A DNA stretch of 64,000 nt. It comes from Bacteroidota bacterium. Lineage in GTDB: Bacteria; Bacteroidota; Bacteroidia; Chitinophagales; Chitinophagaceae. Location of the stretch: assembly GCA_013289175.1 (NCBI GenBank), contig JABDAN010000001.1, positions 110,772 to 174,771 of the forward strand. The letters run 5' to 3'. Each line of letters opens with the position of its first letter. Positions within the stretch are counted from its first letter, which is position 1. The position numbers and the translations under genes are program-made. The notes under the pieces are model-generated. The model did no database searches and was not told the DNA's origin. It saw nothing but the letters and a program-made list of their open reading frames with translations. This document shows positions 31,759 through 51,468 of the stretch, piece by piece.

Positions 31759-32802
31759 CTATGGCGCAGAAACCAACATAAAGGAATGTTGCAAACCCCG
31801 GTAATTATTATAAATAAGAATCTGTCTAGAGGCATTGGATGATCCTCTTTTTTTTATAAGAACGGCAGGTAATGTTCCGGATTGGATAATTTGAATGGAA
31901 AGCCAGAGGGCAAAAGAAGACGCGGTACAATATTCCCCGCTAAGGTGTTTGAAGCGTGCCACCGTTACCCTGGCATCCATGGTAGATTCGACGGCATCAA
32001 AATATGGTTGTTGTCTTTCATCTCCATTTTCGCCTGTAATCAATATATCCGGCATCTGTCCTGATGAAATATTTTCTGACAGAAATCTCTTCAGTGTCTC
32101 CTGTAGGGATGAAACATCTTCGCCATGCAAGGTTTTTATGGCTACGAGTCTAGCAGAAGCACCCTGGGCTTCCCCGTTCACCCATACCATAAAAGTGCCT
32201 TCTCCTGCAATCGTCCCCTTTGCTTTTGAATGGTACAAATTCCGGTTCGCGATGTATTCATTGGCATACCATCCGGCAAGGCGGTCGATGTTGTAGTTAT
32301 AGGGTGAAATTTCGTCGGTGCTTCCCAAAAGGTATCCGGCGTCTTTATTCTCCTCGATCAACATCACTACATCCATCAAAGCATTTTCGAAAGCCAAACC
32401 CCGGTGTACATGGGTCGTATTGTATTGGTGATTCTTTGTAACCATGGCAATCTGCCCGGCTGCGGCATTGGAAGTGCTTTGCACAAAATTTGCAGGAGTC
32501 AGCAACCCCTCCTTATATTCCAGGATTTGGTTTAAGAATTTGATACAGTCTTCCATCCCACCATTGGCGGTCGCGATAATGATTCCATCCGGAAGTGGAT
32601 ATTTTTCCAGCAGGGGTAACGCTGCGCCTACAGCCATTCTCACCGATTTCCCCATCCTTCTTTTCGCACCGGCGGGGATGCCCGGATAGTTCGGTTCGAT
32701 GACATCGAGCAGGTTGTTTTCCGATTCCCTGACTTCAGAGAGATCCATGTCAGGAAAACTTTTTTGTGGTGAAATACAAACAGATTCATGAAAATAAACC
32801 AT
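31759..32802 (-). CDS. Ketosynthase-fold protein lacking active-site Cys (chain-length-factor-like)
   Basis: VQSTSNAAAGQIAM where KS enzymes have ACSSS; HGTGT and GH motifs absent; overlaps the KS gene. Confidence 0.75.
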   Translation of the reverse strand: MVYFHESVCISPQKSFPDMDLSEVRESENNLLDVIEPNYPGIPAGAKRRMGKSVRMAVGAALPLLEKYPLPDGIIIATANGGMEDCIKFLNQILEYKEGLLTPANFVQSTSNAAAGQIAMVTKNHQYNTTHVHRGLAFENALMDVVMLIEENKDAGYLLGSTDEISPYNYNIDRLAGWYANEYIANRNLYHSKAKGTIAGEGTFMVWVNGEAQGASARLVAIKTLHGEDVSSLQETLKRFLSENISSGQMPDILITGENGDERQQPYFDAVESTMDARVTVARFKHLSGEYCTASSFALWLSIQIIQSGTLPAVLIKKRGSSNASRQILIYNNYRGLQHSFMLVSAP

Positions 32803-33997
32803 GCACTATATTTTTGAAAAAAATCAGTGTACTGCAATTGCCACCGAATCCAAACGAGTTGGACATCACATGGCGTATTTCCTGTTTGGCAAAATGCAAC
32901 ACCGGAATCAGTCCTGTCTCCGGGATAGGGTGTCGAAATGAAAGGGAGGGATAGACTTCCTGGTGAAAAATATTCATTATGGAGTAGACAGCTTCAATGG
33001 CGCCGGCTGCTCCCAGCGTATGACCGGTAAACGACTTGGTGGAAGAAAATGCAGGTGTTTGGTCAAACAAACGCAGCATGGCTCGGCTTTCGGTTTCATC
33101 ATTGTTTTCGGTACCGGTTCCATGTGCATTGATATAACTGATCTCTTCAGCGGCTAGCCCACTATTCTCTAAGGCTGCTTTCATGGACAGGTAGGGTCCT
33201 TCGCCGTCGGGAGAATTAGAGGAGGGATGATAAGCATCGTTGCGGTTTCCAAAACCAGACAGGTAGGCATACTTTCGTTTATCCCTGCAATCCTCTTCTC
33301 TTTCGAGCACCAGGAAAGCAGCTCCCTCTCCCAGATTAAGTCCTTTGCGATCTCTGTCAAAGGGTGCGCAGGGTTGAGAAGAAAGTATATTCAACGCATT
33401 GAAGCCATTGATGGTAAATTTTGCCAGACTTTCTGCCCCACCTACAATCGCGCGTTTGGCAAACCCATGACGAATAAGCCGGGCCCCGTATAAAATGGCG
33501 TTGGCCGAAGATGAGCAGGCCGTATTGATGGTGCTGATTTCTCCACCGATCCCATATCGCTCCTGGATAGCTAGGCTTATGGATGCATAGTCATAGGACA
33601 TCAAATAGGACGTTCCATTTTCTTTGGCAAGCGCGTCGTGATATAACTCATCGGTCAGGCACATGCCCCCTACTGTCGTAGCCCCCACCAGCGCGGTTTC
33701 TGCGGAAATCAGTTCTTGTTTTGATAAGTGACTATCCTGGATAGCTTCTTCCACTGCATACAAAGCCAGCAAAGAAGTGCGCGTGATGGAAGCCAGGGGC
33801 GTTCCGAAAATTTTTTTATTGAGGCGCTCGGTAGATATTTTCACTTCCGCGGAAGGAAGTCTGCCCGCGTAGGCTGTCTGGTAATATTGAATATCCCCTA
33901 TGCCACTGCGCTCCTGTTGAAGAGCCAATCTATTTTGTTCCATGGAATCCCCAATGGCACTGATCAACCCCATGCCTGTTATGACAATCCTGCTCAA
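32786..33997 (-). CDS. Beta-ketoacyl-ACP synthase (KAS II/FabF-type)
   Basis: Cys-His-His triad: NTACSSSANAI, NAHGTGTENNDETE, KSFTGHTLGAAGAIEAV. Confidence 0.93.
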   Translation of the reverse strand: MSRIVITGMGLISAIGDSMEQNRLALQQERSGIGDIQYYQTAYAGRLPSAEVKISTERLNKKIFGTPLASITRTSLLALYAVEEAIQDSHLSKQELISAETALVGATTVGGMCLTDELYHDALAKENGTSYLMSYDYASISLAIQERYGIGGEISTINTACSSSANAILYGARLIRHGFAKRAIVGGAESLAKFTINGFNALNILSSQPCAPFDRDRKGLNLGEGAAFLVLEREEDCRDKRKYAYLSGFGNRNDAYHPSSNSPDGEGPYLSMKAALENSGLAAEEISYINAHGTGTENNDETESRAMLRLFDQTPAFSSTKSFTGHTLGAAGAIEAVYSIMNIFHQEVYPSLSFRHPIPETGLIPVLHFAKQEIRHVMSNSFGFGGNCSTLIFFKNIVHGLFS

Positions 33998-34007
33998 TGA
34001 AAGGGAT

Positions 34008-34271
34008 TTACTTGGTTCTATTTTTTTCTATATAGGCCACCATGGTATTGATGTCCGTTAGGATTTTCCTGCCTTCTTTCGGATCCTGGATATTGATGCC
34101 ATATTCGCGGGATAATAAAACGATCAGCTCAATCGAATCAATGGAATCCAATCCTAAACCTTCTCCGAACAAGGGTTCATCATCTTTGATGTCTTCCGGT
34201 TTAACGGTGGTCAGATTCAGAAATTTGATGATTTGCTGCTTCACTTGCAACTTTAACTCTGCTGTTTCCAT
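34008..34271 (-). CDS. Acyl carrier protein
   Basis: GEGLGLDSIDSIELIVLL. Confidence 0.9.
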   Translation of the reverse strand: METAELKLQVKQQIIKFLNLTTVKPEDIKDDEPLFGEGLGLDSIDSIELIVLLSREYGINIQDPKEGRKILTDINTMVAYIEKNRTK

Positions 34272-34275
34272 CTTT

Positions 34276-35556
34276 CTATATTAAATTTTTCTTCTTCAAT
34301 TGATACAAGGTAATGAGCTGGAATAGAACGGCTATACCCACTAAAGATAGAATATTCATCCAAATGTCTCTTAGTTTTCCCCCTTCTAGAAACAAGCTAT
34401 AATACGCCTCCAATGCCCAATGTAAAGGGGAGATTTGGATTATATTCTGCAGGTGGGCAGGCATGGCAAAGGATGGAACCAGTAAGCCGCCCAGTGCGGC
34501 CATGATTAAAATAGAAATAACTCCGAATCCATTGGATTGTTCCCCGGTTTTGGCAAAAACCCCCACCGCAATGGCGTAACTGACGGCGCAATATCCGCAA
34601 GCGAAGGTGACACAAAATAACCCAATCCATTCTTCGGGAATATTCAAGGCCGGCAACCCCAGGAACGGGAAAATTTTATTCCCGATCGCAAAAATCACAA
34701 TGGCCTGTGACATGGTTACCATCAAATAAACAATCTGCTTGGAAAACAGCGCATACAGATAACTGGCAGGAAGGGTTTTTAGACGAATAAAACTTCCGCT
34801 GTTTTTCTCCCTTACAATGCTTCCGCCCAGTGAGGTGACAATAAAAAACATTGCAAAAATGGTCCATGCCGGAACATTGTGCTGGGATGCATTGGGTACA
34901 AACCGGGTACCACTGCGGGATACGGGGATTTCTGAAATCGGCTGCCGAGATAAGAGAATTTGTTTTTCCAAATCGGCCGGCACTTCTCGCTGGTTTACGG
35001 TCTGGTACAGTTTCTTGACGATGGTTTCGCCCTGAATCACCTGAACAGCGCTTTCCAGAGCGCCCTGGATGGATTGCCTGAAAGCAGGCTGCATGACAGG
35101 ATGATAATACATTTTCAGGGAGTCTGGCAAAGGGGCGGGCGTAACCTGTGCCGGCTGTATGGAATCGGGGTCGCTGAGCGCCCGGGTAGCAATATCGTCG
35201 GCTTTGTGTTGAATATAGGAACTGAATCCGGAGGGAATGAGCAGGACAACCAACGCATTGCGGTTGTGCATCTCAGTTGAGATATTGTCTTCTGTTTGAA
35301 TCGAATCGGCTTCCTGGATATTGAACATTCCGATTTTGCCAATGCCTGCCGTCAGCGTTTTACCCAGAGGTCCCCGGTCCCGGTTTGAGATAACTAGAGA
35401 GATCTTGTTGTTGTTGACCAGTTCGAATGTACTGTTCTGTACACTGGTGATGACCATCACCAGGAGGATGGGCATGAAAAACATCATCGTGAGACCTACT
35501 CGGTCGCGGCGGAGAATTTTCAGATCCTTGACTATGGTTGCTTTAAGTATATGCAT
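34276..35556 (-). CDS. ABC-2 type transporter permease
   Basis: MHILKATIVKDLKILRRDRVGLTMMFFMPILLVMVIT; C-terminal TM bundle; next to ATPase gene. Confidence 0.87.
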   Translation of the reverse strand: MHILKATIVKDLKILRRDRVGLTMMFFMPILLVMVITSVQNSTFELVNNNKISLVISNRDRGPLGKTLTAGIGKIGMFNIQEADSIQTEDNISTEMHNRNALVVLLIPSGFSSYIQHKADDIATRALSDPDSIQPAQVTPAPLPDSLKMYYHPVMQPAFRQSIQGALESAVQVIQGETIVKKLYQTVNQREVPADLEKQILLSRQPISEIPVSRSGTRFVPNASQHNVPAWTIFAMFFIVTSLGGSIVREKNSGSFIRLKTLPASYLYALFSKQIVYLMVTMSQAIVIFAIGNKIFPFLGLPALNIPEEWIGLFCVTFACGYCAVSYAIAVGVFAKTGEQSNGFGVISILIMAALGGLLVPSFAMPAHLQNIIQISPLHWALEAYYSLFLEGGKLRDIWMNILSLVGIAVLFQLITLYQLKKKNLI

Positions 35557-35557
35557 A

Positions 35558-36313
35558 TCAGTCCCGAAAACTTTTGCCCGTGAGATCCAGAAACAAGGCT
35601 TCCATGCCTTCGTGACCATGTTTGACCAGCAATTCGTCCAGGCGGTCTTGCGCGATGATCTTACCATCATCCATCAGGGCGACGGTAGTACACAGCCCCG
35701 CTGCTTCCTCCAACTGATGAGAGGTATAAATCAGGGTTGCCCCTTTGTTGTTTAGTTCCTTGAGGTAGTGAATGATTGCATGGCGTGACTGCACGTCGAC
35801 CCCTACCGTTGGCTCGTCTAAAAACAAAACCTCCGGCTCATGGATGACACCAATGGCCAGATTGAAGCGTCGCTTCATGCCGCCGGAAAAACTGCGGAGT
35901 TCCTTGTCTGCTACAGTCGTGAGTCCCAGGATTTCCAGCAGTTCCGCTGACCTTTTTTGGATATGCTTTTTGGTGAGCCCGTACCAGGCTCCATAAAATG
36001 CCAGGTTATCGCGCGGGCTGAGTTCTGGGTAAAAAGAAAAATCCTGTGGAACAAATCCGAATTTCCGATTGGTTGATTTTGGATGATTTCTGATTTCCTG
36101 ACCAAGCAGTTGGATACTTCCTTCTTCATAGGATAGCAAGCCCGCCATCAGGTTCATGAGGGTGGTTTTACCCGCACCATTGGGACCGAACAAGCCGAAT
36201 CTTTCTCCCGCTCCGATTTGTAAGTTAAAATTTCTGAAATAAAGTCCCTCCTGCTGGGGGTATTGAAAAGACAGCCCCTGGATTTTTATGGCAGGATGGT
36301 TCATGCCGGCCAC
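35558..36313 (-). CDS. ABC transporter ATP-binding protein
   Basis: Walker A GPNGAGKTTLM; signature LRSFSGGMKRR; Walker B VLFLDEPTVGVD. Confidence 0.94.
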   Translation of the reverse strand: MAGMNHPAIKIQGLSFQYPQQEGLYFRNFNLQIGAGERFGLFGPNGAGKTTLMNLMAGLLSYEEGSIQLLGQEIRNHPKSTNRKFGFVPQDFSFYPELSPRDNLAFYGAWYGLTKKHIQKRSAELLEILGLTTVADKELRSFSGGMKRRFNLAIGVIHEPEVLFLDEPTVGVDVQSRHAIIHYLKELNNKGATLIYTSHQLEEAAGLCTTVALMDDGKIIAQDRLDELLVKHGHEGMEALFLDLTGKSFRD

Positions 36314-37317
36314 TTTATTTTTGAAAGGGCCTGAAATGCATTTTTTTCCACTTCGGCGGCAGCAAAAAGATAGTCCCGCATTTGATCAAAATCTGCTTGG
36401 CTGCCAATCCTTCCTTTGTAAATACCGGCTGCCTGCACAGCGGCTGACCGCCAGATATCACCGGCTTGGGTAAACTGTTTTGAAATATCAACGAGCTCCT
36501 CCAGGGGATGATAAGCATAGGCTTCTTGTAGAAAGGCAGCGTAAATGAACCGGAAGCCACCTCCACCCGTGCCGATTTCTTCCTGCATACGGACCAGTTG
36601 CGCTAGGTAACTGCCCGCTTTTTTCGGTCCAAGTTTATCGCGCCACTTGCTGATGCGTTTGGCGGTAAAACGGATACCGTTGATTCCGGCAATCGGCCCA
36701 GGAATATGAAGCATGTCCCGGATATTTCTCTTGATTCCACTGCGGATGGCTTTTTTCATTTGTTCTGTGGTAACCTCCCGCTTTTCTTTGGGGTAATACA
36801 ATTGCCCCCTTGGAGCAAAAGCACCTTTGGCAAAACGCACCCGCTGCAATTCATAACTGCTCAGGGAAGTGGCCATTTCCATCACCGGATCACTGATCAG
36901 GTACTGGTCTTCTTCCTTACCAAATACAATAATATTGTGGGCATTAAAATGAAAACGGTATTCTTTCGGAAAATAAGTGAGATAGTATACTCCCACCTGG
37001 CAACCGACGGGACGCCCTTCGGCCAGACACTGAAGCAGTATTTTTTCCGCCTGCTCGGGTGAACTGAATTTTTTTCTCTCCACCGGGATCCCCAGCGCCT
37101 TACAGGTCCTGTTAAAAATCAACCCGGGCTGCGTGCGGAATGCGATGGCCGGACCATTGTTGATTTTCATGAAAGGAATGTAAATAAAGAAAAGACCCGA
37201 TCCAATGCCGAATGCCAGGGGTTCTGTAATCTGATTTACACCGTGGTGGCGGAGCAGACTGGTCGTGACGCCATTTTCACAGTGCGCTGCCTGGGTATGC
37301 TGAAAATCAACCTTCAT
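36301..37317 (-). CDS. BtrH N-terminal domain / DUF4872-like protein
   Basis: HCENGVTTSLLRHHGV...EPLAFGIGSGLFFIY...FNAHNIIVFGKEEDQYLISDP pattern. Confidence 0.78.
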   Translation of the reverse strand: MKVDFQHTQAAHCENGVTTSLLRHHGVNQITEPLAFGIGSGLFFIYIPFMKINNGPAIAFRTQPGLIFNRTCKALGIPVERKKFSSPEQAEKILLQCLAEGRPVGCQVGVYYLTYFPKEYRFHFNAHNIIVFGKEEDQYLISDPVMEMATSLSSYELQRVRFAKGAFAPRGQLYYPKEKREVTTEQMKKAIRSGIKRNIRDMLHIPGPIAGINGIRFTAKRISKWRDKLGPKKAGSYLAQLVRMQEEIGTGGGGFRFIYAAFLQEAYAYHPLEELVDISKQFTQAGDIWRSAAVQAAGIYKGRIGSQADFDQMRDYLFAAAEVEKNAFQALSKIKWPA

Positions 37318-37714
37318 GTACCTTCATTGTTTTTAATTCTTCCAGCGATACTTCAAACAGTGCTGCATATCGGGTGAGTTTGGCATCCGAAAGCTTTTCA
37401 AAGACCGGATATTTCAGGTGCTTTTTTACCTGCCATTTCCAAAATCCGGTATAAGCCGCCACGATACCGATATCCATTACACGCAATTCCATGAAAAACA
37501 GGATCGGACTCGCTTCCCTGTTTTTTACTTTCTCCGCGGCAGCTGCAATACGTTGTTCGACATCTTTCCAGGCTACATCCAGGGCCGAGGACTTGACCTC
37601 CCAGCCGTTGCTGAGCACGGTGGTATATTTTCCCGATTCATCCACCACATAACAAACCTCTCCGGTGATTTTCCCCAGTGCTCCCAGATCCTGCGGGATT
37701 TCTTCTTTTTTCAT
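37307..37714 (-). CDS. Hypothetical cluster protein
   Basis: 135-aa ORF overlapping its neighbour by 11 bp inside the operon. Confidence 0.7.
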   Translation of the reverse strand: MKKEEIPQDLGALGKITGEVCYVVDESGKYTTVLSNGWEVKSSALDVAWKDVEQRIAAAAEKVKNREASPILFFMELRVMDIGIVAAYTGFWKWQVKKHLKYPVFEKLSDAKLTRYAALFEVSLEELKTMKVHEG

Positions 37715-37739
37715 GAGAGAGGCTTTAGGCTTGAGTCAA

Positions 37740-38894
37740 CTAACAAACCGTTAACAAAGCATACATGTAGGAAAAGCGAGAACTTTCAGGTACCAACAAC
37801 AAAATCTTCTGGCCTTTTTTTAAGTCTTTGCTTTTGAAGACTTCATCCACCATAAAATACACGGATCCAGCGCCCACATTTCCCAGAGAATATAGATTGA
37901 TCACCCATTTATCATAGGGAATCGGTGTGCCATTCTTCTGTAACTGCTCATAGATCTTGGAACGGAAAAATTCGCTGGACATATGCGGCAGAAAATAGTC
38001 CACGTCAGCCGGATCGAGCCCCTTTTCCTTAAACAGTTTGGAAAGCTTGATCCCACCCAGAGGTACGATATTTTCGCTTAACAATTTTACGTCCTGCTTG
38101 ATACTCATGATCGATTGGGCCAACACCTCTTCCGGTGTATAATCCAGGTAGCTTTTTAATTTGCCGGTCTCCAGTTTATTTCCGCCCATGTACATACAGG
38201 CTTCCATTTCATGGGCATAGGAAACCCCTTCGATCCACTCAATTTTTAAGCTAAACCCTGTCTCATTTTTCCTGTTGGACAGCAGAAAGGAAGAAGCCCC
38301 ATCGGATAACATCCAACGGAGGAATTCTTTTTCAAAACCTATATATGGATTATCTTCTAATTCTTTGAGTTTCTTCGCTTCATCCTCAAATAACTCTGAT
38401 TTAAGTGAAGCTGAAAACCGCTCTGATCCGGTCGCAACGGCTTGGTGTGCATCTCCGATTTTTACAGACATATATGCATACTTCAGGGCGTGCATACCGG
38501 CGCAGCAAACACCGGAAGGAGAAACCACTTCAATGGCCCCCGCTTCTGGCAGTTCCCCATGCACCATCACGGCATGGGATGGCATGATCTGATCGGGTGA
38601 AGAGGTTCCGCAAACCAGCAGGTCAATCTGTTTTATCCGCACCGGATCGTTGTCCAGCATTTTGCGGATCGCTTCGGCCGTCATTTCCGCATTGGTGTGG
38701 GTAGATTTTCCTTCTTTTGTCAGGGCATAATAACGGGTTTTGATTCCGTTGTTGCGCAGCACAATACGCCTGGATTTGGAAGGGCTTTTATTGATATATC
38801 CGAGAAACTCCTCCATCTCCTCATTGGAAACCGGTTCGTTGGGGAAATATGTCGCTGTCCTGGTGATGTAAACCTCGTTAAACTCCATCTGCAT
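37740..38894 (-). CDS. darB: KAS III-family DarB-like dialkylresorcinol synthase component
   Basis: VVSPSGVCCAGMHALKYAYMSVKIG active Cys; ITRTATYFPNEPVSNEEMEEFLG; adjacent to DarA. Confidence 0.85.
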   Translation of the reverse strand: MQMEFNEVYITRTATYFPNEPVSNEEMEEFLGYINKSPSKSRRIVLRNNGIKTRYYALTKEGKSTHTNAEMTAEAIRKMLDNDPVRIKQIDLLVCGTSSPDQIMPSHAVMVHGELPEAGAIEVVSPSGVCCAGMHALKYAYMSVKIGDAHQAVATGSERFSASLKSELFEDEAKKLKELEDNPYIGFEKEFLRWMLSDGASSFLLSNRKNETGFSLKIEWIEGVSYAHEMEACMYMGGNKLETGKLKSYLDYTPEEVLAQSIMSIKQDVKLLSENIVPLGGIKLSKLFKEKGLDPADVDYFLPHMSSEFFRSKIYEQLQKNGTPIPYDKWVINLYSLGNVGAGSVYFMVDEVFKSKDLKKGQKILLLVPESSRFSYMYALLTVC

Positions 38895-38901
38895 TTCCTG
38901 A

Positions 38902-39801
38902 TTAGTTCACGCCTGAATAATATTGTTTTTGCCTTTTGATACGCCCGGACAGGAAGGGTTTGAAAAAAATCGCATCAACTGTCAGGATGATGGGGGCCGC
39001 AATAAATAGCGCAATTAAAAGATAATATTTGAATGCAACAAGCCAGGCATCTTTTTTTTTGCGCTTGGAAATGATGCCTGCCCACACCTTAAAAATCTTT
39101 CGGGCCTTGCTCTCAATAAACATCAACGCATACTTTACCGGAACCGCTCCCTGTTTAACCATTTCTTCCTGAAATCCTTGCCAGTTCCCTCTTTCAAGAT
39201 AGGGAATCGCTATTTCTCCGTAGCTTTTAGTTTTCATGATGTCGTCTTCGGAGACGCCCGGTACCGGGAACATATTCCATAAGCGCTCTTTTTTTGCCTT
39301 GAACATCCAATAAAAAATTGTTACAAAACTTACCAGGTTGTGGTGCCGGTCCACCAGTGCAATATTGCCTACCAGCGGAGCATCCATGGATTTTAAAACG
39401 GGTTTTATTTTCTCCATGGCGCTCAGCCACATATTTCTGGCGCCGGTGATCGTAATGATGGGTGTATTTTTTGCCAACTCCTTAAACCGGGGATCGGCCA
39501 GTAAGCTATTGGAAGGAATACTGGGAGAAAGAAACCAAGCCTGGTAACCAAGAATGATTAAATCGTATCGGGATTCCTTAAAATGAAAGGGCTGTAGCGG
39601 ACGGGGTACCTGCAGAACACAGTCGGGCATGACGCCAAAAAATGACTTGCCGGACCAGGGAAACGGATAAGCTTGTTCTGGATAAATGCGAAGCTTTTCG
39701 ACGGTGAATCCCGACCCCTGAAAAGGCGATGTAAATTGATCTATAATTTCTTCTAATTGGCCGGATTGCGAATAAAATATCGCCAGAACTTTTTTGCCCA
39801 T
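38902..39801 (-). CDS. darA: DarA-like dialkylresorcinol condensing enzyme
   Basis: MGKKVLAIFYSQSGQLEEIIDQFTSPF...YPFPWSGKSFFGVMPDCVLQVPRPLQPFHF family signature. Confidence 0.85.
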   Translation of the reverse strand: MGKKVLAIFYSQSGQLEEIIDQFTSPFQGSGFTVEKLRIYPEQAYPFPWSGKSFFGVMPDCVLQVPRPLQPFHFKESRYDLIILGYQAWFLSPSIPSNSLLADPRFKELAKNTPIITITGARNMWLSAMEKIKPVLKSMDAPLVGNIALVDRHHNLVSFVTIFYWMFKAKKERLWNMFPVPGVSEDDIMKTKSYGEIAIPYLERGNWQGFQEEMVKQGAVPVKYALMFIESKARKIFKVWAGIISKRKKKDAWLVAFKYYLLIALFIAAPIILTVDAIFFKPFLSGRIKRQKQYYSGVN

Positions 39802-39814
39802 GTTATGCTCGAAG

Positions 39815-40342
39815 TTAAGAAAGATCAAGCTTTAATACTTTCGATTTTTTATTGTAACGCAGGATAGCCTGCTGAACCTCACTGGGTAGTGATTTATAAG
39901 TTTTTCTGATATAGGCACTATCTTTTTCCAGATCATTTTTGTAGCCCAGAAATCCGGGTGCATTTTCCTGGATCATCAGACGAAGGAAACGGTATTCGGT
40001 ATTGTCCGGTTCCTGCTCAATTGCCGCTTCGAGCATTTGATGACCTTGTTTGAACAAATGAAGTTTGGTCGAAGCCGATCCGCCCAGGCCGGCTTTTTTC
40101 ATGATCAGTGCACCAGTAAAAGCCCCGAGATTTCCCGTGGCGTCTTTGCGCGAGTACACGAGCTCGGAATCCACCAGCATCCGGTTGTTTCCTTCCATGG
40201 CCTGGTAAAAAACCTGGCGGTTTATTCCATTGGCCGCGGTATCGGTTGGAGCCTGCCGGATATCCAGATCGGCACCCATACAACAGACCGGCAGGTATCC
40301 CAGTAAAAAAAACAAAAATGGGAGATTTAACCTTTTGCTCAT
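39815..40342 (-). CDS. Hypothetical secreted cluster protein
   Basis: Signal-like leader FLFFLLGYLPVCCMGA; position in operon. Confidence 0.68.
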   Translation of the reverse strand: MSKRLNLPFLFFLLGYLPVCCMGADLDIRQAPTDTAANGINRQVFYQAMEGNNRMLVDSELVYSRKDATGNLGAFTGALIMKKAGLGGSASTKLHLFKQGHQMLEAAIEQEPDNTEYRFLRLMIQENAPGFLGYKNDLEKDSAYIRKTYKSLPSEVQQAILRYNKKSKVLKLDLS

Positions 40343-40381
40343 TATCCTGATTTAAGAAATTTCTAAATAAATCCTTCGTCG

Positions 40382-41689
40382 CTAACCCAGTACTGAATTC
40401 CTTTTATCAATGAATTTTATTGCTTTTCTTCCGGAATCCGGAAACTGCAGTCTTTGCAATTCCGTTGCATCTACATAATGAATTTGTGGGGTCACCCGAA
40501 GTTTTGCCTGTAAATAAGCCCGGATACGGTGATCTGATTCCTCCGAATACCTGGTCGGAAAAAGGTGCAGCAGAACTTCATCCGTCCCTATTTCATTGGA
40601 ATAGACCTCGGCTACGAAATCAGAGATATCTTCCATACCAGAGAGTAAATCAAACAACGCCGGTGCGAACAGCGTAGTCCCCTTGAATTTGATCATCTGT
40701 TTTTTTCTTCCGATCACGGGGGACAACCTCAGTGTTTCCCGTCCACAGGAACAGGTTTCTTCCATAGCAATGCAAAGATCGCCGGTTTTGTATCGCAACA
40801 GGGGCATCCCCTCTACCCCCAAAGTGGTAATGGTCACTTCTCCGGGCTCCCCTTTTGCTACTGGCCGGTTGTCTTCGCTGAGCAACTCTACGATCAGCAA
40901 TTCCGGTTGGAGATGTCCTCCATTCCGGGCTTCACATTCAGTAAAAGCTGTCTGCATTTCAGTCGAAGCATAAGTAGAAAATAGTTCCAGGTTCCAGCTC
41001 TCTGTGATTTTTTTGCCCAGCCGATTCAAAGAAAAATCGGTCTGTCGAATGTTCTCTCCGATGCAGATGGCCTTGCGGACACTGGAAGCTCCCGGATCGA
41101 TGCCATGATCTTGGGCATATTGAATCAGTTTTACAATAAAAGATGGAACACCGACCAGTACCGTGGGTTTAAGACGAAAAATCGTTTCCCACTGAAGGGA
41201 AGGAACACCGGGTCCGACCCGGATCAAGGAGGCGCCCAGCATGCGTATACCGGCATAATAGGCCATGCCGGCCATAAACTGGCGGTCCAGGGTCAGCATC
41301 AGTTGAAAAGTATCGGCGGGTGTACATCCTGCACAAGTGAAGGAACCCCATTCATTCAACGCCAATCTTTTCAGGTCATTTTCTGTCAGGGCGATCGTTA
41401 CCGGCGTACCCAGCGTTCCGGAAGTAGAAGTGTATTCAATGATCCGGGAGCGGGGAACACAAAGAAAAGCATCGTTGTGGGCTTGCAGGTCTTCCTTATC
41501 GGTGGTCGGCAGTTTCAGCAGATCTTCTTTTCTTCGAATTTCTTGGGCCCTCACTCGATGTTCCTTAAAGACTTTTTGATAATAGGGGGAATGCGCCTGG
41601 AGGTAGGCCATGAGTTCACACAGTTTTTTCTCCTGTATGACCCGGATTTGCTCAGGGCTTGAAAAAATCTTATCGGCAGAAGGGTTCAT
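40382..41689 (-). CDS. Phenylacetate-CoA ligase / F390-synthetase-type adenylate-forming ligase
   Basis: EYTSTSGTLGTPVTIALT, FSTYASTEMQTAFTEC, LLRYKTGDLC motifs. Confidence 0.87.
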   Translation of the reverse strand: MNPSADKIFSSPEQIRVIQEKKLCELMAYLQAHSPYYQKVFKEHRVRAQEIRRKEDLLKLPTTDKEDLQAHNDAFLCVPRSRIIEYTSTSGTLGTPVTIALTENDLKRLALNEWGSFTCAGCTPADTFQLMLTLDRQFMAGMAYYAGIRMLGASLIRVGPGVPSLQWETIFRLKPTVLVGVPSFIVKLIQYAQDHGIDPGASSVRKAICIGENIRQTDFSLNRLGKKITESWNLELFSTYASTEMQTAFTECEARNGGHLQPELLIVELLSEDNRPVAKGEPGEVTITTLGVEGMPLLRYKTGDLCIAMEETCSCGRETLRLSPVIGRKKQMIKFKGTTLFAPALFDLLSGMEDISDFVAEVYSNEIGTDEVLLHLFPTRYSEESDHRIRAYLQAKLRVTPQIHYVDATELQRLQFPDSGRKAIKFIDKRNSVLG

Positions 41690-42060
41690 GATTCAAGAAT
41701 GACCACCGCGGTGGCAAAAGATTTTAAATGTGAAAGGCTGACATGTATGGACCGTATACCCAAAGGAGCCAGTGTTAGAAGTGTTTGGCCCGATATGCGC
41801 ATCTCCGGCTTGCCATTGTCCTGATTGACCACCTCGATTTCATGCAGCATTAAACCACGATCCCATCCCCTGCCCACGGCTTTGAGAAAAGCTTCCTTGG
41901 CAGCAAAACGCGCCGCATAATGCTCGTAGCGGGCGGCCTTCGGTTCGCAATATCCTATTTCATGGAGGGAAAAAACCATTTCCCGAAAACCTGAATCCCT
42001 GCCCACCCGCTCAGCGATCCGGTCTACCTCGATGATGTCTATACCCGTACCCAATATCAT
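41686..42060 (-). CDS. acpS: Holo-ACP synthase (AcpS-type phosphopantetheinyl transferase)
   Basis: GTGIDIIEVDRIAE; FAAKEAFLKAVGRG; 4-bp overlap with the ligase gene. Confidence 0.92.
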   Translation of the reverse strand: MILGTGIDIIEVDRIAERVGRDSGFREMVFSLHEIGYCEPKAARYEHYAARFAAKEAFLKAVGRGWDRGLMLHEIEVVNQDNGKPEMRISGQTLLTLAPLGIRSIHVSLSHLKSFATAVVILES

Positions 42061-42066
42061 AGCCGT

Positions 42067-43737
42067 CTATTGATGAAGTTTATCCCGACACTGGGTTATC
42101 TGTAAGTGAATCTGATTTTCCTCATTCTTAGTAGCCACTTCCTTGGACAGCGCCTGCTCGTAGTAGAGCAAGGCTTGGCCATAGTTTTTTTTCTTAAACA
42201 TTTCATTTCCGGCCAGCTGGTAAGTCTGATAATAAGAAGGATTGCTCGCAATCAGGCTGTCGGGATTTACGTCGATTCCTTCCATCATCTCTTTTTTAAG
42301 TTGCCGAAATTTTAAAAACAAAGCATAACGGTCGGTCAGTAAAAAAGAGTCTGCCGGCAGATTTAAACTGCTGTCGGATATCTCCTGGTTGGTTTTCATA
42401 CCGGCCAACGAAAATACCTTATCCAGGTCATAACAAACGAACTGACCAAGCTGCCAGGGTTCTGTGGATACCCACACCCGCCTTTTTTGCGGTTCAAAAA
42501 TAATGGAATGGTGGGCAATGAACTGATTGATAGATTTCTCGTTGCCCAGCCCGATATCTGCATTGTCCAGGCCTTTGTGATCCCTTAAGATTTTCACCGT
42601 CTGGGAAACGGTATTTATTTTGGTAGCCGACAGTAATTCTTGGACCCGCTGATAACGATAGTCGGAAGCACTCTGACGCATTTGAATCCGGTTGGATCGG
42701 GAATTGACCAGCTCGGGACTTTGAAAATGATTGGCACAAATGATTTCATTTTTTCCCGGATCATACAAGCCGATTGAATCGGGTGTTTTTTCAATAATAA
42801 CGGCTTTCCCGTCGGCTGCTGAAGCGATCAAAAAAGATTCTGACACGAACATTTTTCTTTTTTTCGCAATCTCCATAGCCTGTTGGATATTTTCAGCATA
42901 CTGAAGAATTTCCCGCGCAACCAGGGATACGGGTGTTGCCGACCCGGATGGAATATCCGACTTGGCGGCATTGATGGTAACGGTTAGTCCCTTTTCATTC
43001 ATACCAGATACCACGCCAATAAATCCACCCCAAGTGACCGACATAAACTTAAATCCCTCGGCTGGATTTTCAAACGACACAATTTTATTCTCTGCAAAAT
43101 GATCGCCTACATAGAAATCAAAATTCCTTCCAATTATCATCTCCCCATTTTCAGATCTGGATCCCCAGGTACCAAAAGAGGTACAGCCCACCAGCGCAAG
43201 GTTCTGCAAGGCATGACCGATGTCGTGGGCCGCATGATAGTTGAGTATCCGCTGATAATTGCTACCGATATAATTGTACTTGTTTGAGGCAGAAAGAGAA
43301 ATGCCGTAAATTTCTTCTTTGTCTTCTTCGGTAACATGTTTATCCAGGTCCCGGTTAAACCATCCTACGACATATTTCAAAAAATGAAGGTAGAATTTGG
43401 AAGGCACCAGGCGGTTAATTTGATCACTGAAATAATCTTCCTGCAGCTGGATCAGCTCCTGGGTTAATTTTCCGTTGACCACGCCCCGATCAAAGGGCTC
43501 GCCTTCCACGTAGAGTTCGAACAATCCGGATTTGCTTTTTCTAAACCAGTTATTTTTTAGGGTATATAATCCGGGACTGGACTGAACCCGTTGCCAACCG
43601 AGCGCTGTTTTATCGGCAATTTTAGGTGGAGTGGTTTTGGAAACGATGGATATATAGATAAACCCGGCTAAAAGAAGCACGCCGATCACCGCACCTATGC
43701 GGGCCAGTCTGCGCCAAAATCTGTTTTTTCTAGGCAT
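42067..43737 (-). CDS. C45 family autoproteolytic acyltransferase/hydrolase
   Basis: N-terminal TM; putative nucleophile VGCTSFGTWGSRSENGEMIIGRNFDFYVGDHF; GFIGVVSGMNEKGLTVTINAA. Confidence 0.83.
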   Translation of the reverse strand: MPRKNRFWRRLARIGAVIGVLLLAGFIYISIVSKTTPPKIADKTALGWQRVQSSPGLYTLKNNWFRKSKSGLFELYVEGEPFDRGVVNGKLTQELIQLQEDYFSDQINRLVPSKFYLHFLKYVVGWFNRDLDKHVTEEDKEEIYGISLSASNKYNYIGSNYQRILNYHAAHDIGHALQNLALVGCTSFGTWGSRSENGEMIIGRNFDFYVGDHFAENKIVSFENPAEGFKFMSVTWGGFIGVVSGMNEKGLTVTINAAKSDIPSGSATPVSLVAREILQYAENIQQAMEIAKKRKMFVSESFLIASAADGKAVIIEKTPDSIGLYDPGKNEIICANHFQSPELVNSRSNRIQMRQSASDYRYQRVQELLSATKINTVSQTVKILRDHKGLDNADIGLGNEKSINQFIAHHSIIFEPQKRRVWVSTEPWQLGQFVCYDLDKVFSLAGMKTNQEISDSSLNLPADSFLLTDRYALFLKFRQLKKEMMEGIDVNPDSLIASNPSYYQTYQLAGNEMFKKKNYGQALLYYEQALSKEVATKNEENQIHLQITQCRDKLHQ

Positions 43738-45235
43738 TTCTCATTTTTTCAACAAAGTCATCTTTTCCAGTTACGGCCATGGCGGTTATCATTCCGCTGA
43801 TGGCTGTACCCAGGATGCCATGAAGGTTCAGGTATTGTCCGGTAAGAAATAAATTCGGTATCCGGGTTTTAGGAGAAATCAGGGTACCGAGTGGATTGTT
43901 GAAATCCTTCACTGTACCATAGAGATTTCCATCCTCGTTTCCGATATAGTCGCGGAAGGTCAGGGGGGTGGAAGAATAGGTATGCAAAATCGCATTTCGT
44001 ATTGCTGGAAATTTTTCTTCCACCCGGTTGAGCAGTTGTTCTTCTTTTCTTTTTTTGAAAAGATCGTACGCGGTGCCGCGGTGTTGTTTGGAGGAAACCG
44101 TATTGAAACTTTCTGCCCAGCCTTGCACCTCTTCATAGCGCATATATGCAAAAATAGTCATCCCGGAAGCAAAATCATTTTTTGCTGACGGCGAAAGATA
44201 CATCGCATAACCGAGTGGCCAATTCTTTTCATCATACAAATCCATTTCCCAGACCGATCCTGTTTTATGATAGTAATAGTTGTGTTTAAAATAAGGGAAA
44301 TGATTTTTCTTAAAAACAATATTCAACGTAAAGGAGGACACGGTTGTCGCCATTTCTTCCATTCTTTTTCTGGTAACCGGCCGGATCAGAGGGGAGTCGG
44401 TCATCCGGTAGGTATTGGCCGGTGATGTATTGGATATAAATTGTTCGGCCTGCACCAAAGAACCGTCTTGCAACCGGACGGCATGGACTCGGTCTCCTTC
44501 CATCAGCAGGTTCTTCACCTCCCGGTTTCTGATCAGGACGCCACCGGCTGAGGATATATTCTTTGCCATAATTTTTGCAATCTGGGAGCCGCCATCCATC
44601 ACCCGCCAGGCACTCTCTATATAACTGTTCACCGTCAGGGCGTGGATATAAAACGGTGTGGTATCTCCGGCACCAGCATAGAGCATATTGTTGCCCGCCA
44701 GGACAGCGCGCAGGGTGAGATCTTCCGTAAGGGATTCTATAAATTTTTTTGCGGAAAACTGCATGGCCTTTTCCTTTTCATCCGCCCTTCCTTCTAATTT
44801 GAGCCGGTACAAAGGAAAACGGTCACAGATCTGGCGGATGGTCTCAATATATTTCTGAATGGCTTTTTTTTCCCGGGGGAAATTGCGGATCATTTCCTGT
44901 TCGAATGCACCATAACCCTGCATGATGGCGTATTCTTTTTCATCTCCCTCCAAAAGTATCCGGTCAAAAGAGGAATCCATTTTTTCCAAACGGAGTTTGT
45001 CGGTTAGTCCCAGCCATTTGAAGATCTGATACAGGTTTTGCCCCTTGTCCAGCGCGCCCAAATAATGGACGCCGGAATCAAAAATGACTTTATTGCGGAC
45101 ATAGATCTGAAGGCAACCGCCGATCTGTTTATTTTTTTCAATCATACAAACAGAATACCCTTCCCGGCTCAGGATATTTCCGCAGACAAGGCCCCCCATT
45201 CCGGTTCCTATGATCAGTACATCAAACTTTTTCAT
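43730..45235 (-). CDS. CrtI-like NAD(P)/FAD-dependent oxidoreductase
   Basis: FDVLIIGTGMGGLVCGNILSREGYSVCMIEKNKQIGGCLQ; LFLTGQYLNLHGILGTAISGMITA. Confidence 0.87.
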   Translation of the reverse strand: MKKFDVLIIGTGMGGLVCGNILSREGYSVCMIEKNKQIGGCLQIYVRNKVIFDSGVHYLGALDKGQNLYQIFKWLGLTDKLRLEKMDSSFDRILLEGDEKEYAIMQGYGAFEQEMIRNFPREKKAIQKYIETIRQICDRFPLYRLKLEGRADEKEKAMQFSAKKFIESLTEDLTLRAVLAGNNMLYAGAGDTTPFYIHALTVNSYIESAWRVMDGGSQIAKIMAKNISSAGGVLIRNREVKNLLMEGDRVHAVRLQDGSLVQAEQFISNTSPANTYRMTDSPLIRPVTRKRMEEMATTVSSFTLNIVFKKNHFPYFKHNYYYHKTGSVWEMDLYDEKNWPLGYAMYLSPSAKNDFASGMTIFAYMRYEEVQGWAESFNTVSSKQHRGTAYDLFKKRKEEQLLNRVEEKFPAIRNAILHTYSSTPLTFRDYIGNEDGNLYGTVKDFNNPLGTLISPKTRIPNLFLTGQYLNLHGILGTAISGMITAMAVTGKDDFVEKMRNA

Positions 45236-48200
45236 GACTTTTTACCGGATGTGTGATGACAAAAAGAAGGTTGGAGGTCCACTCAGACGGATCCACCGTC
45301 TGGCAGTCCAGGTGGTGACTCCTGGCCAGTTCCCTGATATTTTTCCCGGACAAAAAATGCATTTTTTTTCCGCTCGTTTTATTGAACGCAAAAAACCGGG
45401 TAGACAAGAATTCGCTGAACCGGGTCGCCTGGTGTTTCTTATCCATATCCCGGTCTCCATCCCGGATGAGCAAAACACCTCCGGGGCGCAGCGCATCCAT
45501 GCATCCATGCATCAGGTGATCCTGCTGGTCGGGTGTAAGATAATGCAGTACGTCTGAGAGAATGATGGCATCGGCTGGCCTGGGTTGAAGGTTTCGGATG
45601 TCCGCCTGCAGAAAATGAATATTTCCGTTTTTACTGAAACAATGACTGGCCGTTTCAATTTTTTCTTCATCGTGGTCATATCCGATGATATCCCGACCGG
45701 GAGCCAGCATTTGCAGCATATAACTCATGAAACCATAGCCGCATCCGATATCCAGTATCCTGCCCTTGAGTGGAATATGTTCATGAAAAACCCGGTAATC
45801 CTTTTCCAGCCGAATTTTCACCCGTAGGTACCATTCCAGTATGGGGCCTTTGTAAATATAATTGTAGATGAGCTGCTCGCGGAAATAACGCGGCCCCTCC
45901 TCCTGTTTTTTAAGCCGGGCATATTCCCTTCTGAAATACTGTCCCATATATTTTGCCCTTTCTGAATAATCCACCCCGAAAAAAAAGTCTCCCGTTTTCA
46001 CCCGCGGAAGATATTCTATGGCGATGTAACCGTCCTTGAGTAGAAAATCACCCTTGGACATGGTATATCCAGTGCCGTGAATCAGGACGGGCAGGATGTC
46101 AAGCCTCAATTTTTCCGCAATAAAAAAAGCGCCTTTGTGAAATCTCCGGATCTGTTCATCGGCGGAGCGGGTTCCTTCCGGGAAAACAGCAATGGAATAT
46201 CCGGCTTTTACCTGTTCCTCCAGGTAACCCGTACTGTTTTCAATTCCCCGGGAAACCGGATAATAACCTGCCATTTGTACCAGTTTGCCGAACAGGGGTG
46301 AATTCCAAACCCAATTGTTGGTGAGCAGAACCACTTTGGGATAAAGCATGGTCATGATGAGAATATCCAAAAACGATTGGTGATTGGCAATGAGCACAAC
46401 CGGTCTTGAAAAATCTTCCTTGCGTGGATTGATGATTTTCTTTTTCACATTTCCCATAATATATAAGACCGACCAGGTATAGGAAGAAACCAGGCGGTGA
46501 TAAAAGTTTTTGGTCCGGGTTTTGGCAAAAGGATTCCACTTCACCAGGAATAAACCGATGATTGTGACCACCACACTGCCGAAGGCAAAATAGCTCAACG
46601 AAAAAATAGATTTGCAGAGTCCGAATGCTGTCCAGGGGAAACGCCCCTTGCTCACCCGTCCGGTGATCAAAAAACGAAAGAAAAAAGGGATAAGGACTTG
46701 TGCGACCAATACCACACTGAGTATTCCGGTGATGGAGATCAGGGCAATCGATCGAAGGGCGGGATGTTTGGCAAAAATCAGGACGCCGAGGCCGGCCAGG
46801 GTGGTGATGGCCGAAAGGACAATAGAAGATTTATAACTGGATAGGTTTTTTTTCCCTGTTTTATATTCCTGCAACAAACCGTCCATAATAAATAAACTGT
46901 AGTCATCTCCCAATCCGAATATGAGCGCCGATAAAATAATATTTACAATGTTGAATTGCAATCCGGCCAGCCCCATGATTCCCAGAATCCAGACAAAGGC
47001 GATGATCATGGGAATAAAGGAGACCAGGGCCAGTTCGATCCGCCCGTAGGTCAATAACAATACGCCGAATACCAGGATCGACACCATCCATCCGATCTGA
47101 TTGAAATCGGCCGTCACTACATCCAGCAGTTTGGAAGTCAGGTATTGTTTATCGGTGATGGTCACAGCAGGAAATTGGCCAAAGGAATCAAAAACAATTT
47201 TTTTATCCGCCGGTGCTACCTGCAGCAAGCTGATCAGTGAAACTTGTTTGGGATTTTCCAGGATATAGTCATTGGCAAAAGCAGTTCTAAGAAAATGGGT
47301 TTCTCCACTGTCCAGCGGCTCGTAATTTTTTGTAACCATCGCACGGGCTGAATCCTCCAGGGATGTTCGGAAACCCAGGGAATCGGCGATGATTCTGGTT
47401 TTGCTGAGCAGATTGTTCTGTTTTTCCAAATTCCAGTAGGCATGCCAGTACCGAATCCTTTCCCTTTGAAGGGAGTCGGAAATGAGCAATTGAAATACAC
47501 CCGTATATTTCTTAATTAATTTATTCTGGTAGAGGCTCGTAATTTTTTCGTCGACAAGTTCCTGTTTTCTCAATACATCCTCCAGGCTTTTTCCTTCCGT
47601 CACCAAGTACAGGGAACGCAGACCGTAAGCATTGATCCTGTTGAGCGTCGATTCTGCTTTTTTCAGAGGCTCCGGCATGTAGTTTAAATGCATCATGTCC
47701 TGATCGAATCCTACCCGGTTGACAAAAAACGCAAATACGACAGTGAGTAAAAATATCACCCCCACCAGCCATTTGTTTTTTTCCGGATGAGAAACGGCCA
47801 GCCGCAGGATCCAGGAATCGCGTTCGGTCGATTCGCTGGCTTTTCTAACCGTTTGCGGGCGGGAGATTAAATGGGGTAGAAAAATCAGGGAACTCAGAGA
47901 GGCACCAATCAGACTGAAGGCAGCGAAGAGTCCAAGGTCTTTTAATATTTCGGAGCGCACAAACTGGAGGCAGAAAAAACCGCCGATGGTTGTGAAGCTG
48001 CCAATGGTGAGTGGAAATGTCAGGTCATTTAATACTTCCCGCATGTCCCTGCGGTGACGAAAATGATTGTATACATGCAACGAATAATTGATGGCGATTC
48101 CAAGGACAATGGAACCGGCAGCCAGCGCGATCACCGAAATGGTTCCTTTGATCCAATAGAGGATACTCAAAGAGAACAAGGCGCCCAGCAAAACGGGCAG

Positions 48201-49100
48201 GAGGATAAAAAAAGGCGCTCTTTTCTTTTTAAAATACCAGCTGATAAAAACAATGAGAAAAAGAGAAGTGATGCTCAGGGTAAGAATCGAATCTCGCCTG
48301 AGCTGGGAAGCATTTCCCGCTGCCACCGCTGCGGCGCCAAAATAAGCGGCATCAACACGAGGAAATTTTTTCTCTTGCAGTTCCGCAATAACCTGGTCGA
48401 TGCCCGCCAGCAGACGGTTATTTTTACCCGTGTTGTTGGCCGGATAGGCTGGCCGAACAAACAAGGCCATATAGCGCTGGTCTTTGGTAATGATGTGTCC
48501 GTCAAATAAGTCAAAATTTTCATCATATTGAAGATTCCGGACTTTTTTAATTGCGGGGTTGGCCAATCCCAGTGGATCTTTGGCAATAAAAAATTTCAAG
48601 GCAAAACCCGCGGGGGAAGAAAGGTTTTGCTTGTCTCTGTCCAAAACCGCCTTCAGTTTTTCGGGTTGTTGAAGACTGTCCAGGTACCGGTAGTCTGAAG
48701 GATCCAGAAATACGGGTAGGTGTTCGGTTACCACCGAGACGAGGTCCGGAAAAAGGCTGTCGTTGATGCGGTCATCGACCCCATGAATCAATTGGGGATA
48801 CTGATCACGCAGTCGAAGGGAAAAGGAATCGGCGAAAGCCGACAGGGAATCGGGTGCCGTGTGGCTGCTGTCCTTTAAGGAAATCATCAGGACCAGTTTA
48901 TCGGCGAAGCGGGCATTGCGCAGTATTTCGTTGAGTTTGTCCGTCTGCCTGTCCCGGGGCAGGATCTTAGAGATATCCTCTTCTGGTTTTATTTTGACGG
49001 CAAAATATCCTGTAACCAGAAACAAACCGATGAACACCGTGAAAAATACCTTCCGGTTGGCTTCAAAATAACGATAGATATACAGAATTAGGTTTGCCAT
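45222..49100 (-). CDS. Trimodular protein: MMPL/RND exporter - LPLAT acyltransferase - class I methyltransferase
   Basis: RND/MMPL TM repeats (LGIAINYSLHVYNHF; FGLGDDYSLFIMDGL); NHQSFLD and FPEGTRS acyltransferase motifs; ILDIGCGYGF SAM motif. Confidence 0.9.
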   Translation of the reverse strand: MANLILYIYRYFEANRKVFFTVFIGLFLVTGYFAVKIKPEEDISKILPRDRQTDKLNEILRNARFADKLVLMISLKDSSHTAPDSLSAFADSFSLRLRDQYPQLIHGVDDRINDSLFPDLVSVVTEHLPVFLDPSDYRYLDSLQQPEKLKAVLDRDKQNLSSPAGFALKFFIAKDPLGLANPAIKKVRNLQYDENFDLFDGHIITKDQRYMALFVRPAYPANNTGKNNRLLAGIDQVIAELQEKKFPRVDAAYFGAAAVAAGNASQLRRDSILTLSITSLFLIVFISWYFKKKRAPFFILLPVLLGALFSLSILYWIKGTISVIALAAGSIVLGIAINYSLHVYNHFRHRRDMREVLNDLTFPLTIGSFTTIGGFFCLQFVRSEILKDLGLFAAFSLIGASLSSLIFLPHLISRPQTVRKASESTERDSWILRLAVSHPEKNKWLVGVIFLLTVVFAFFVNRVGFDQDMMHLNYMPEPLKKAESTLNRINAYGLRSLYLVTEGKSLEDVLRKQELVDEKITSLYQNKLIKKYTGVFQLLISDSLQRERIRYWHAYWNLEKQNNLLSKTRIIADSLGFRTSLEDSARAMVTKNYEPLDSGETHFLRTAFANDYILENPKQVSLISLLQVAPADKKIVFDSFGQFPAVTITDKQYLTSKLLDVVTADFNQIGWMVSILVFGVLLLTYGRIELALVSFIPMIIAFVWILGIMGLAGLQFNIVNIILSALIFGLGDDYSLFIMDGLLQEYKTGKKNLSSYKSSIVLSAITTLAGLGVLIFAKHPALRSIALISITGILSVVLVAQVLIPFFFRFLITGRVSKGRFPWTAFGLCKSIFSLSYFAFGSVVVTIIGLFLVKWNPFAKTRTKNFYHRLVSSYTWSVLYIMGNVKKKIINPRKEDFSRPVVLIANHQSFLDILIMTMLYPKVVLLTNNWVWNSPLFGKLVQMAGYYPVSRGIENSTGYLEEQVKAGYSIAVFPEGTRSADEQIRRFHKGAFFIAEKLRLDILPVLIHGTGYTMSKGDFLLKDGYIAIEYLPRVKTGDFFFGVDYSERAKYMGQYFRREYARLKKQEEGPRYFREQLIYNYIYKGPILEWYLRVKIRLEKDYRVFHEHIPLKGRILDIGCGYGFMSYMLQMLAPGRDIIGYDHDEEKIETASHCFSKNGNIHFLQADIRNLQPRPADAIILSDVLHYLTPDQQDHLMHGCMDALRPGGVLLIRDGDRDMDKKHQATRFSEFLSTRFFAFNKTSGKKMHFLSGKNIRELARSHHLDCQTVDPSEWTSNLLFVITHPVKSHEKV

Positions 49101-49102
49101 GG

Positions 49103-50311
49103 CTACACAATGACCCGGGGCCTTTTGCTGAAAATTTTTAGCAAAATAAAACAGATCAGTCCCGATAAAGCGCCTGCAACAATCGCCAAACTGATACTGC
49201 CGGCCAGGTATTGTTTGAAGTTATATCGGATCATCGATAAACTCAGGGATTTGGCCAGGGAAATCGACGGAGGCGATCCCGGCATCCAAAAACTCCCGAA
49301 GCGGTAACTGACATAAATAATCAGGGGGATCATGGGGGGAATACTGATATTGGCAAACAGGATGACCAGTCCTTTATTCAGCCGCATCAAGACCGCCCCA
49401 AAAATTGCCAGAATCAACTGAAAACCCCAAACCGGCGCGATGCCCATAAAAATTCCGAAGGCCACCGAAGCCGACTTTCTGGCCATCGTTTGACCCGGAT
49501 CGAAGAGCTCATCTATGAACACTTCCTTCCATTTTTGTTTTATAAACAATTTTCGAAGGAGGTCCCTGGGTTTGATGTACAACAGGCTAATGAACACCAG
49601 AAAAGTATTGAGGATGCTGATGCGTGCAAAATCCAGGATGGGTCGGAAGTGCGATATTCTTTCCTTTGGGGGCGGATAATAAACCGACACCGGCACCGAC
49701 CGTATGGGTATGCCTTTCCAGGCAGCCCGGACGATCACTTCAATTTCAAATTCAAACCGCTTGGTGTAAAACCGGATAGATTCAAGGCGACGGACGGGAT
49801 AAAGTCGGTAACCGGACTGGGTATCTGGAAGACGGATACCGGTCTCTACCTGAAACCAGAAATTTGAAAACCGATGTCCAAAGCTGCTTTTTCCCGGTAC
49901 CGAGGACTGATTCATATTCCTCGCCCCGACAATGAGCGAGCCGGGGTTGGCTACCAGGCATTCCAAAAAAGCCGGCAGGTCGTGGGCATAATGCTGGCCA
50001 TCGGAATCAATGGAAATTGCATAGTCATAACCTTTTTGAACTGCGGATCGAAAACCTTGCTGCAGGGCGGCCCCTTTTCCCTGGTTGGAGGAAAAGGATA
50101 AAAACCATATATCCGGAAAGCGCTTCAGAATAAAGACCGTTTCATCGGTTGATCCGTCATCAATGACAATAACCGGGATCCGGTATCGGAGCAGATCGTC
50201 CAGAAGCCGGCCCAGGAACTTTGCATTGTTAAAGGTGGGGACAAGGATACAGACTTTGAACCCATCGAGCGATGTATATCGGGTAAGGGATTTCGTATCG
50301 TGGGTGGCCAA
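49103..50311 (-). CDS. GT2 glycosyltransferase fused to DUF2062 membrane domain
   Basis: CILVPTFNNAKFLGRLLDDLL, VIDDGSTDET, SIDSDGQH; C-terminal ASVAFGIFMGIAPVWGFQL. Confidence 0.88.
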   Translation of the reverse strand: MATHDTKSLTRYTSLDGFKVCILVPTFNNAKFLGRLLDDLLRYRIPVIVIDDGSTDETVFILKRFPDIWFLSFSSNQGKGAALQQGFRSAVQKGYDYAISIDSDGQHYAHDLPAFLECLVANPGSLIVGARNMNQSSVPGKSSFGHRFSNFWFQVETGIRLPDTQSGYRLYPVRRLESIRFYTKRFEFEIEVIVRAAWKGIPIRSVPVSVYYPPPKERISHFRPILDFARISILNTFLVFISLLYIKPRDLLRKLFIKQKWKEVFIDELFDPGQTMARKSASVAFGIFMGIAPVWGFQLILAIFGAVLMRLNKGLVILFANISIPPMIPLIIYVSYRFGSFWMPGSPPSISLAKSLSLSMIRYNFKQYLAGSISLAIVAGALSGLICFILLKIFSKRPRVIV

Positions 50312-50381: not shown

Positions 50382-50804
50382 ATGCTTGCTCTGACCAAAT
50401 CAATGACCGATATGCCTGGACGCGTAATGATTTTTGATGATGATACCGACCTGTTGGAAGTTTGTGGTATTGTGTTGAAATCTAAAAATTATGAAGTCAA
50501 CGGTATAAACAGATGCAATGATATTCTGGAGGAAGTAAGATCCTTTTTACCCGACGTGATTTTGATGGACAACTGGATTCCCGATTCAGGTGGCGTGGTC
50601 GCTACCCGCCAAATAAAAAGTGATGTGGGTTTGCGATCCATCCCTGTTATTTTCTTTAGTGCCAATGATCATGTTCAGGAGCTGGCCGAAGAAGCCGGCG
50701 CTGAATTTTTTCTCCAAAAACCTTTTGACATCGAAGAGCTGGAAAATGCGGTGTCCAAAGCGGTGGCTATTCATCGCCAGTCCCTTGTCAGCGAAAGCCG
50801 GTAA
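50382..50804 (+). CDS. Single-domain response regulator
   Basis: RVMIFDDDTDLLEVC; DVILMDNWIPDSGG; FLQKPFD; no output domain. Confidence 0.9.
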   Translation: MLALTKSMTDMPGRVMIFDDDTDLLEVCGIVLKSKNYEVNGINRCNDILEEVRSFLPDVILMDNWIPDSGGVVATRQIKSDVGLRSIPVIFFSANDHVQELAEEAGAEFFLQKPFDIEELENAVSKAVAIHRQSLVSESR

Positions 50805-51358: not shown

Positions 51359-51468
51359 ATCCGGGTTTTAAACGTTCTAGACCAGATTTCAAATAATTTA
51401 ATTCAAATCACATACCGATATTTCAAATATGGGTAGGCACAAGATTCTCTTTATTAAAATATAAGAAA

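Follow-up and report, generated by a model that had tools for sequence, protein, structure and literature searches.

Flexirubins are yellow-orange pigments that are common in Bacteroidota. In Chitinophaga pinensis, Schoner et al. 2014 described a cluster running from flxA to flxY, with dar at a locus apart from it; tyrosine ammonia-lyase activity was shown for FlxA and 4-coumarate-CoA ligase activity for FlxY, expression of darA and darB is cited there as yielding a dialkylresorcinol, and the rest of the route is proposed (PMC3992019). Flavobacterium johnsoniae UW101, likened to our system by its published description, shares the pathway and the position of dar beside flx genes, but carries darA and darB within one cluster of 37 kb, where the present genome has two loci (PMC3992019). 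The dar cluster of the arcuflavin system (arc/dar) of Azoarcus sp. BH72 also lists an acyl carrier protein (darC), a ketosynthase (darJ), an ABC transporter (darF, darI) and darG/H, although these last two are annotated differently from the DarG and DarH described below and may be other families (PMC3949708). The Azoarcus pigment loci are likewise physically unlinked, whereas the polyene starter is supplied by a chorismate-utilising enzyme (3-/4-hydroxybenzoate) instead of a tyrosine ammonia-lyase (PMC3949708). Across the phylum, a survey counted 268 flexirubin clusters in 252 strains (PMC9248904).

The window analysed here is a stretch of 64,000 nucleotides (G000:C1:110772-174771) from a 3.23-Mb, 80%-complete assembly in 130 contigs. 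Its segment 31759-50311 comprises the export/activation half (flxT-flxY by gene order) and the complete dar block of the standard flexirubin pathway. On gene content, this uncultured bacterium of Chitinophagaceae type almost certainly has a complete and ordinary flexirubin pathway encoded at two loci, of which the operon is one. It resembles C. pinensis DSM 2588 (Cpin_1853-1877, flxA-flxY; Cpin_6850-6851, dar; PMC3992019), which has the same described functions in two loci; the gene order of that system was mapped here in its congener Chitinophaga polysaccharea. In C. pinensis the break separates flx (A to Y) from dar, whereas in the window genome it separates flxA-S from flxT-Y, with flxT-Y joined to dar. 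The window therefore adds another flexirubin locus, which differs in where the break falls. All flx and dar genes are physically linked in F. johnsoniae and divided between two loci here, but such linkage is not a defining feature of the pathway, since that of C. pinensis is also split (PMC3992019).

The sixteen minus-strand ORFs that the preliminary description had placed between 50311 and 31759 are all present in the ORF list of the window with the same ends. Neighbouring ORFs overlap, as many do, or lie no more than 39 bp apart (a gap of 2 bp at 49103/49100; overlaps of 14 bp at 45235/45222, 8 bp at 43737/43730, 4 bp at 41689/41686, 14 bp at 39828/39815, 13 bp at 36313/36301 and 17 bp at 32802/32786), so that a single operon is plausible. 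The DarA, DarB, ketosynthase, chain-length-factor (CLF)-like, acyl carrier protein (ACP), AcpS, ligase, exporter and acyltransferase roles first read from the sequence stand, most of them backed by family searches, and four of the products (FlxY, DarB, DarG and DarH) pass the cut-offs of flexirubin/dialkylresorcinol NCBIfam models. The absences noted earlier also hold: no ammonia-lyase, FabG-like ketoreductase, FabZ/ApeI-like dehydratase, thioesterase or LolA occurs among the Pfam/NCBIfam family matches of 31759-50311, and neither an aromatic ammonia-lyase nor a FabA-type dehydratase was found in the whole window. Flanking the operon on its 5' side (50382-57010) are genes for a lone response-regulator domain, topoisomerase IB, a histidine kinase, a sigma-54 activator and sigma-54; on its 3' side (28326-30041) lies a plus-strand gene for a carotenoid-isomerase/CrtI-like oxidoreductase.

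The first six genes of the operon, all on the minus strand, correspond in number to the letters T to Y. A GT2 glycosyltransferase with a C-terminal DUF2062 (49103-50311, flxT by order; Pfam Glycos_transf_2 9.6e-22, DUF2062 1e-15) opens the block, as it opens the conserved block in relatives. It is followed by a 1292-aa fusion (45222-49100, flxU by order), in which Pfam/NCBIfam domains identify an MMPL/RND-type exporter, a PlsC acyltransferase with its HX4D motif and a SAM methyltransferase. This fusion was considered as a possible novelty and rejected, its counterpart in C. polysaccharea being a single 1294-aa ORF in the same place. Next come a CrtI-like FAD oxidoreductase identified by family searches (43730-45235, flxV by order), a C45 family acyltransferase/hydrolase (42067-43737, flxW by order; NF040521 230 bits, cut-off 85; Pfam AAT) and an AcpS-type phosphopantetheinyl transferase (41686-42060, flxX by order; TIGR00516 96 bits, cut-off 59.8). 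The C45 protein is a candidate for joining the polyene acid to the resorcinol; a PDB sequence search with it gave nothing significant. The last of the six is FlxY, the 4-coumarate-CoA ligase (40382-41689; NF053551 655 bits, cut-off 520), the sole FlxY match in the genome; 4-coumarate is the acid activated by its orthologue in C. pinensis (PMC3992019).

The dar block continues on the same strand with a gene for a 175-aa protein that has an N-terminal hydrophobic stretch and no Pfam/NCBIfam match (39815-40342); it is conserved by synteny directly upstream of darA in the mapped Chitinophagaceae relatives, and the dar block of C. polysaccharea showed no counterpart. DarA, the dialkylresorcinol-condensing enzyme (38902-39828), is assigned by homology and synteny, for unlike DarB, DarG and DarH it matches no Pfam or NCBIfam model: in the mapped dar blocks, including that of C. 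polysaccharea (34% identity), darB is immediately preceded by a darA homologue, and a darA match was found in 21 of 21 relatives searched. Its N-terminus has a flavodoxin-like appearance (KVLAIFYSQSGQ), and a PDB sequence search with DarA gave nothing significant, the weak best match being 2mwm (E 0.078). The DarB ketosynthase (37740-38894; NF053539 624 bits, cut-off 550), which completes the DarA/DarB pair, is close to StlD, a protein of known structure (5gk0, E 4e-100). Downstream are DarG (37307-37714; NF053545 flexirubin_DarG 183 bits, cut-off 170), the BtrH-related acyltransferase DarH (36301-37317; NF053550 470 bits, cut-off 300) and an ABC exporter pair (34276-36313), composed of a DrrA-like ATPase (35558-36313; PF00005 6.9e-33) and an ABC-2 permease (34276-35670; PF12698 3.5e-30). 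The true start of the permease is probably further downstream than the ORF start, given the 113-bp overlap of this ORF with that of the ATPase. The block closes with an ACP (34008-34271; PF00550; NF006617 74.5 bits, cut-off 70) bearing a DS(I/L) serine motif, a ketosynthase with its active-site Cys in TACSS (32786-33997; PF00109 9e-32) and a CLF-like ketosynthase homologue (31759-32802; PF13723 2.8e-13, and sequence), in which the active-site Cys motif was not found. Gene order in the dar block is shared with C. polysaccharea, Terrimonas ferruginea and Agriterribacter humi, so that neither this order nor the exporter fusion is peculiar to the window. In some relatives the homologous genes are interrupted, with an in-frame stop inside the darA match (G003, G021, G030, G032) or a darB match split over two frames (Niabella ginsengisoli, G071:C4:555245-556386); these are possibly decaying dar genes, or sequencing errors.

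As one of two explanations for the absent polyene-forming genes, the preliminary description had proposed that their functions lie elsewhere in the genome, and the whole-genome search that it suggested for tyrosine ammonia-lyase, ketoreductase, dehydratase and LolA found homologues on contigs C12 and C36. The aromatic ammonia-lyase search of the assembly returned two matches, one on C1 and one on C12. The latter is FlxA, a tyrosine ammonia-lyase (C12:6354-7889, minus strand; NCBIfam NF053541 853 bits, cut-off 700) with the MIO motif ASG; FlxA and FlxY both score above their model cut-offs. The C1 match (C1:59301) was rejected as the starter enzyme: it is HutH, adjoining hutU (urocanase) and hutI (imidazolonepropionase) homologues, and second, HutH-like ammonia-lyases in relatives have just 31-35% identity to FlxA. 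The polyene genes of C12 (1-8777, minus strand) form a run cut off by the contig start. Downstream of FlxA they encode the FlxB ketoreductase (NF053542 402 bits, cut-off 340) and then, in order on the minus strand, a ketosynthase, an ACP, an LpxL-like acyltransferase, a probable hotdog dehydratase, a 212-aa protein, a 4HBT thioesterase, a second ketosynthase and the N-terminus of a methyltransferase. The dehydratase was recognised from its sequence by eye, and a 239-aa protein encoded ahead of FlxA resembles a LolA-type carrier on reading of its sequence; both are without a model match. A further minus-strand run, which leaves contig C36 at its end (C36:25825-30661), encodes an ACP, a ketosynthase, a CLF, a polysaccharide deacetylase, LolA (a PF03548 match), LolB2_flexi (105 bits, cut-off 60) and a FabA/FabZ/ApeI-like dehydratase, beyond which plus-strand genes begin. 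The ketoreductase, dehydratases, ketosynthases/CLF and ACPs of polyene formation are thus spread over C12 and C36, together with the thioesterase, and the LolA and LolB2_flexi proteins of C36 complement the MMPL/PlsC fusion and GT2 glycosyltransferase of the window. Another ketosynthase domain in the assembly (G000:C26:9546-10295), within a 2237-aa open frame, probably belongs to a separate modular polyketide synthase of the same genome.

The other explanation offered earlier, that a reduced cluster makes a different resorcinol lipid primed by the acid that the ligase at 40382-41689 activates, drew on the absence of polyene-forming genes from the operon and of an ammonia-lyase and a FabA-type dehydratase from the window; it is now highly improbable, as that ligase is a FlxY equivalog, an enzyme supplying 4-coumarate and the polyene gene set are present in the same assembly, and a flxA-flxB run lies on another contig in each of four related genomes that share the operon layout. 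The reduced-cluster reading fails because, apart from a short assembly gap, the pathway functions are in the genome; with the missing genes located there, nothing is reduced, the finding is an ordinary one, and a novel resorcinol lipid becomes unnecessary.

The gap lies between C36 and C12. No exact overlap of 20-399 bp was found between the end of C36 and the start of C12, so that their adjacency, inferred in an 80%-complete draft, relies on relatives. In the close relative G061, the C12 and C36 genes make up a single plus-strand block with unchanged order and no break (on its contig C26), a gene order repeated in a second close relative, G062 (contig C113), and in both genomes this block is on a contig separate from that of flxY and dar. 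The region of G061 that corresponds to the gap encodes an FlxJ-family methyltransferase (536 bits, slightly under the cut-off of 560), a halogenase/geranylgeranyl-reductase-like FAD protein and a 207-aa protein; C12 and C36 between them lack the FlxJ C-terminus, the FAD protein, the small protein that follows it and the N-terminus of one ACP. Counted from flxA, and excluding the LolA-like gene in front, the joined block has 19 genes, matching the C. pinensis letters A to S. Apart from A, B, J and Y, we infer the flx letters from order and function.

The assignment of C12 and C36 to the window organism relies on binning and on close relatives, and would be wrong if both were contaminant contigs of another Bacteroidota and the window organism had no polyene genes. 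Such an origin might be entertained for a fragmented draft in which both runs stop at contig edges, but it is very unlikely: estimated contamination is 0.36%, an orthologous block, its FlxA 78-90% identical, occurs in close relatives that share the flxY-dar layout, and the genome has a single flxY, so that a contaminating flexirubin producer would need to contribute exactly the complementary half.

In the proposed two-locus pathway, FlxA would deaminate tyrosine to 4-coumarate, which FlxY of the window would convert to 4-coumaroyl-CoA. The second locus (C12 and C36) would provide the type II ketosynthases, the ketoreductase, the dehydratases and the ACPs that extend this to an aryl polyene acid. 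DarA and DarB, supplied by the adjacent ACP, ketosynthase and CLF, would join two fatty-acid intermediates head to head into the dialkylresorcinol. An acyltransferase, perhaps the C45 protein, may form the ester bond between the two moieties, and the exporters, LolA/LolB-like proteins and glycosyltransferase may move the pigment or place it in the outer membrane. This scheme is drawn at the level of gene content and homology, the reactions shown in C. pinensis being those of FlxA, FlxY and DarA/B only (PMC3992019).

To place the break among relatives, the window, C12 and C36 genes were mapped onto the surroundings of flxY relatives at 80 loci, each taken with at most 10 kb per side. The usual gene directly downstream of flxY is flxA (52 loci), and the dar block takes this place in four; leaving aside the locus L074/L156 described below, the others show neither flxA nor dar (15), a different flx gene (4) or a contig edge (4). 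In the FlxY tree, the window, the four dar-linked loci and one contig-edge locus form one clade (99/99), and in the four dar-linked genomes flxA lies on another contig, adjoined by flxB and the genes that come after it. The simplest reading is one rearrangement within this flxY-dar clade. The clade-specific relocation of the break is the sole new point here and is of minor evolutionary interest, a small datum on the rearrangement of flx and dar modules. An apparently incomplete biosynthetic cluster can be a complete known pathway divided between loci, and cluster-based genome mining would score the flexirubin cluster of this clade as incomplete despite the presence of all pathway functions. 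Dialkylresorcinols act as signal molecules in Photorhabdus. That the joining of flxT-Y to dar and the move of flxA-S, confined to this clade, altered how dialkylresorcinol and polyene supply are co-regulated, and that these bacteria can make free dialkylresorcinol independently of the pigment, is a speculation to which we give little credence. At one locus of the 80 (L074/L156), flxY is followed by flxA, then the dar block, then flxB, which puts the dar block inside the flx run. This locus belongs to MAG ES-bin-184 (L074, JACMJX010000166.1 8256-18135; L156, 2369-13316), where the whole dar block, from the 175-aa gene to the CLF, is positioned between flxA and flxB in a one-locus arrangement unlike all other loci mapped.
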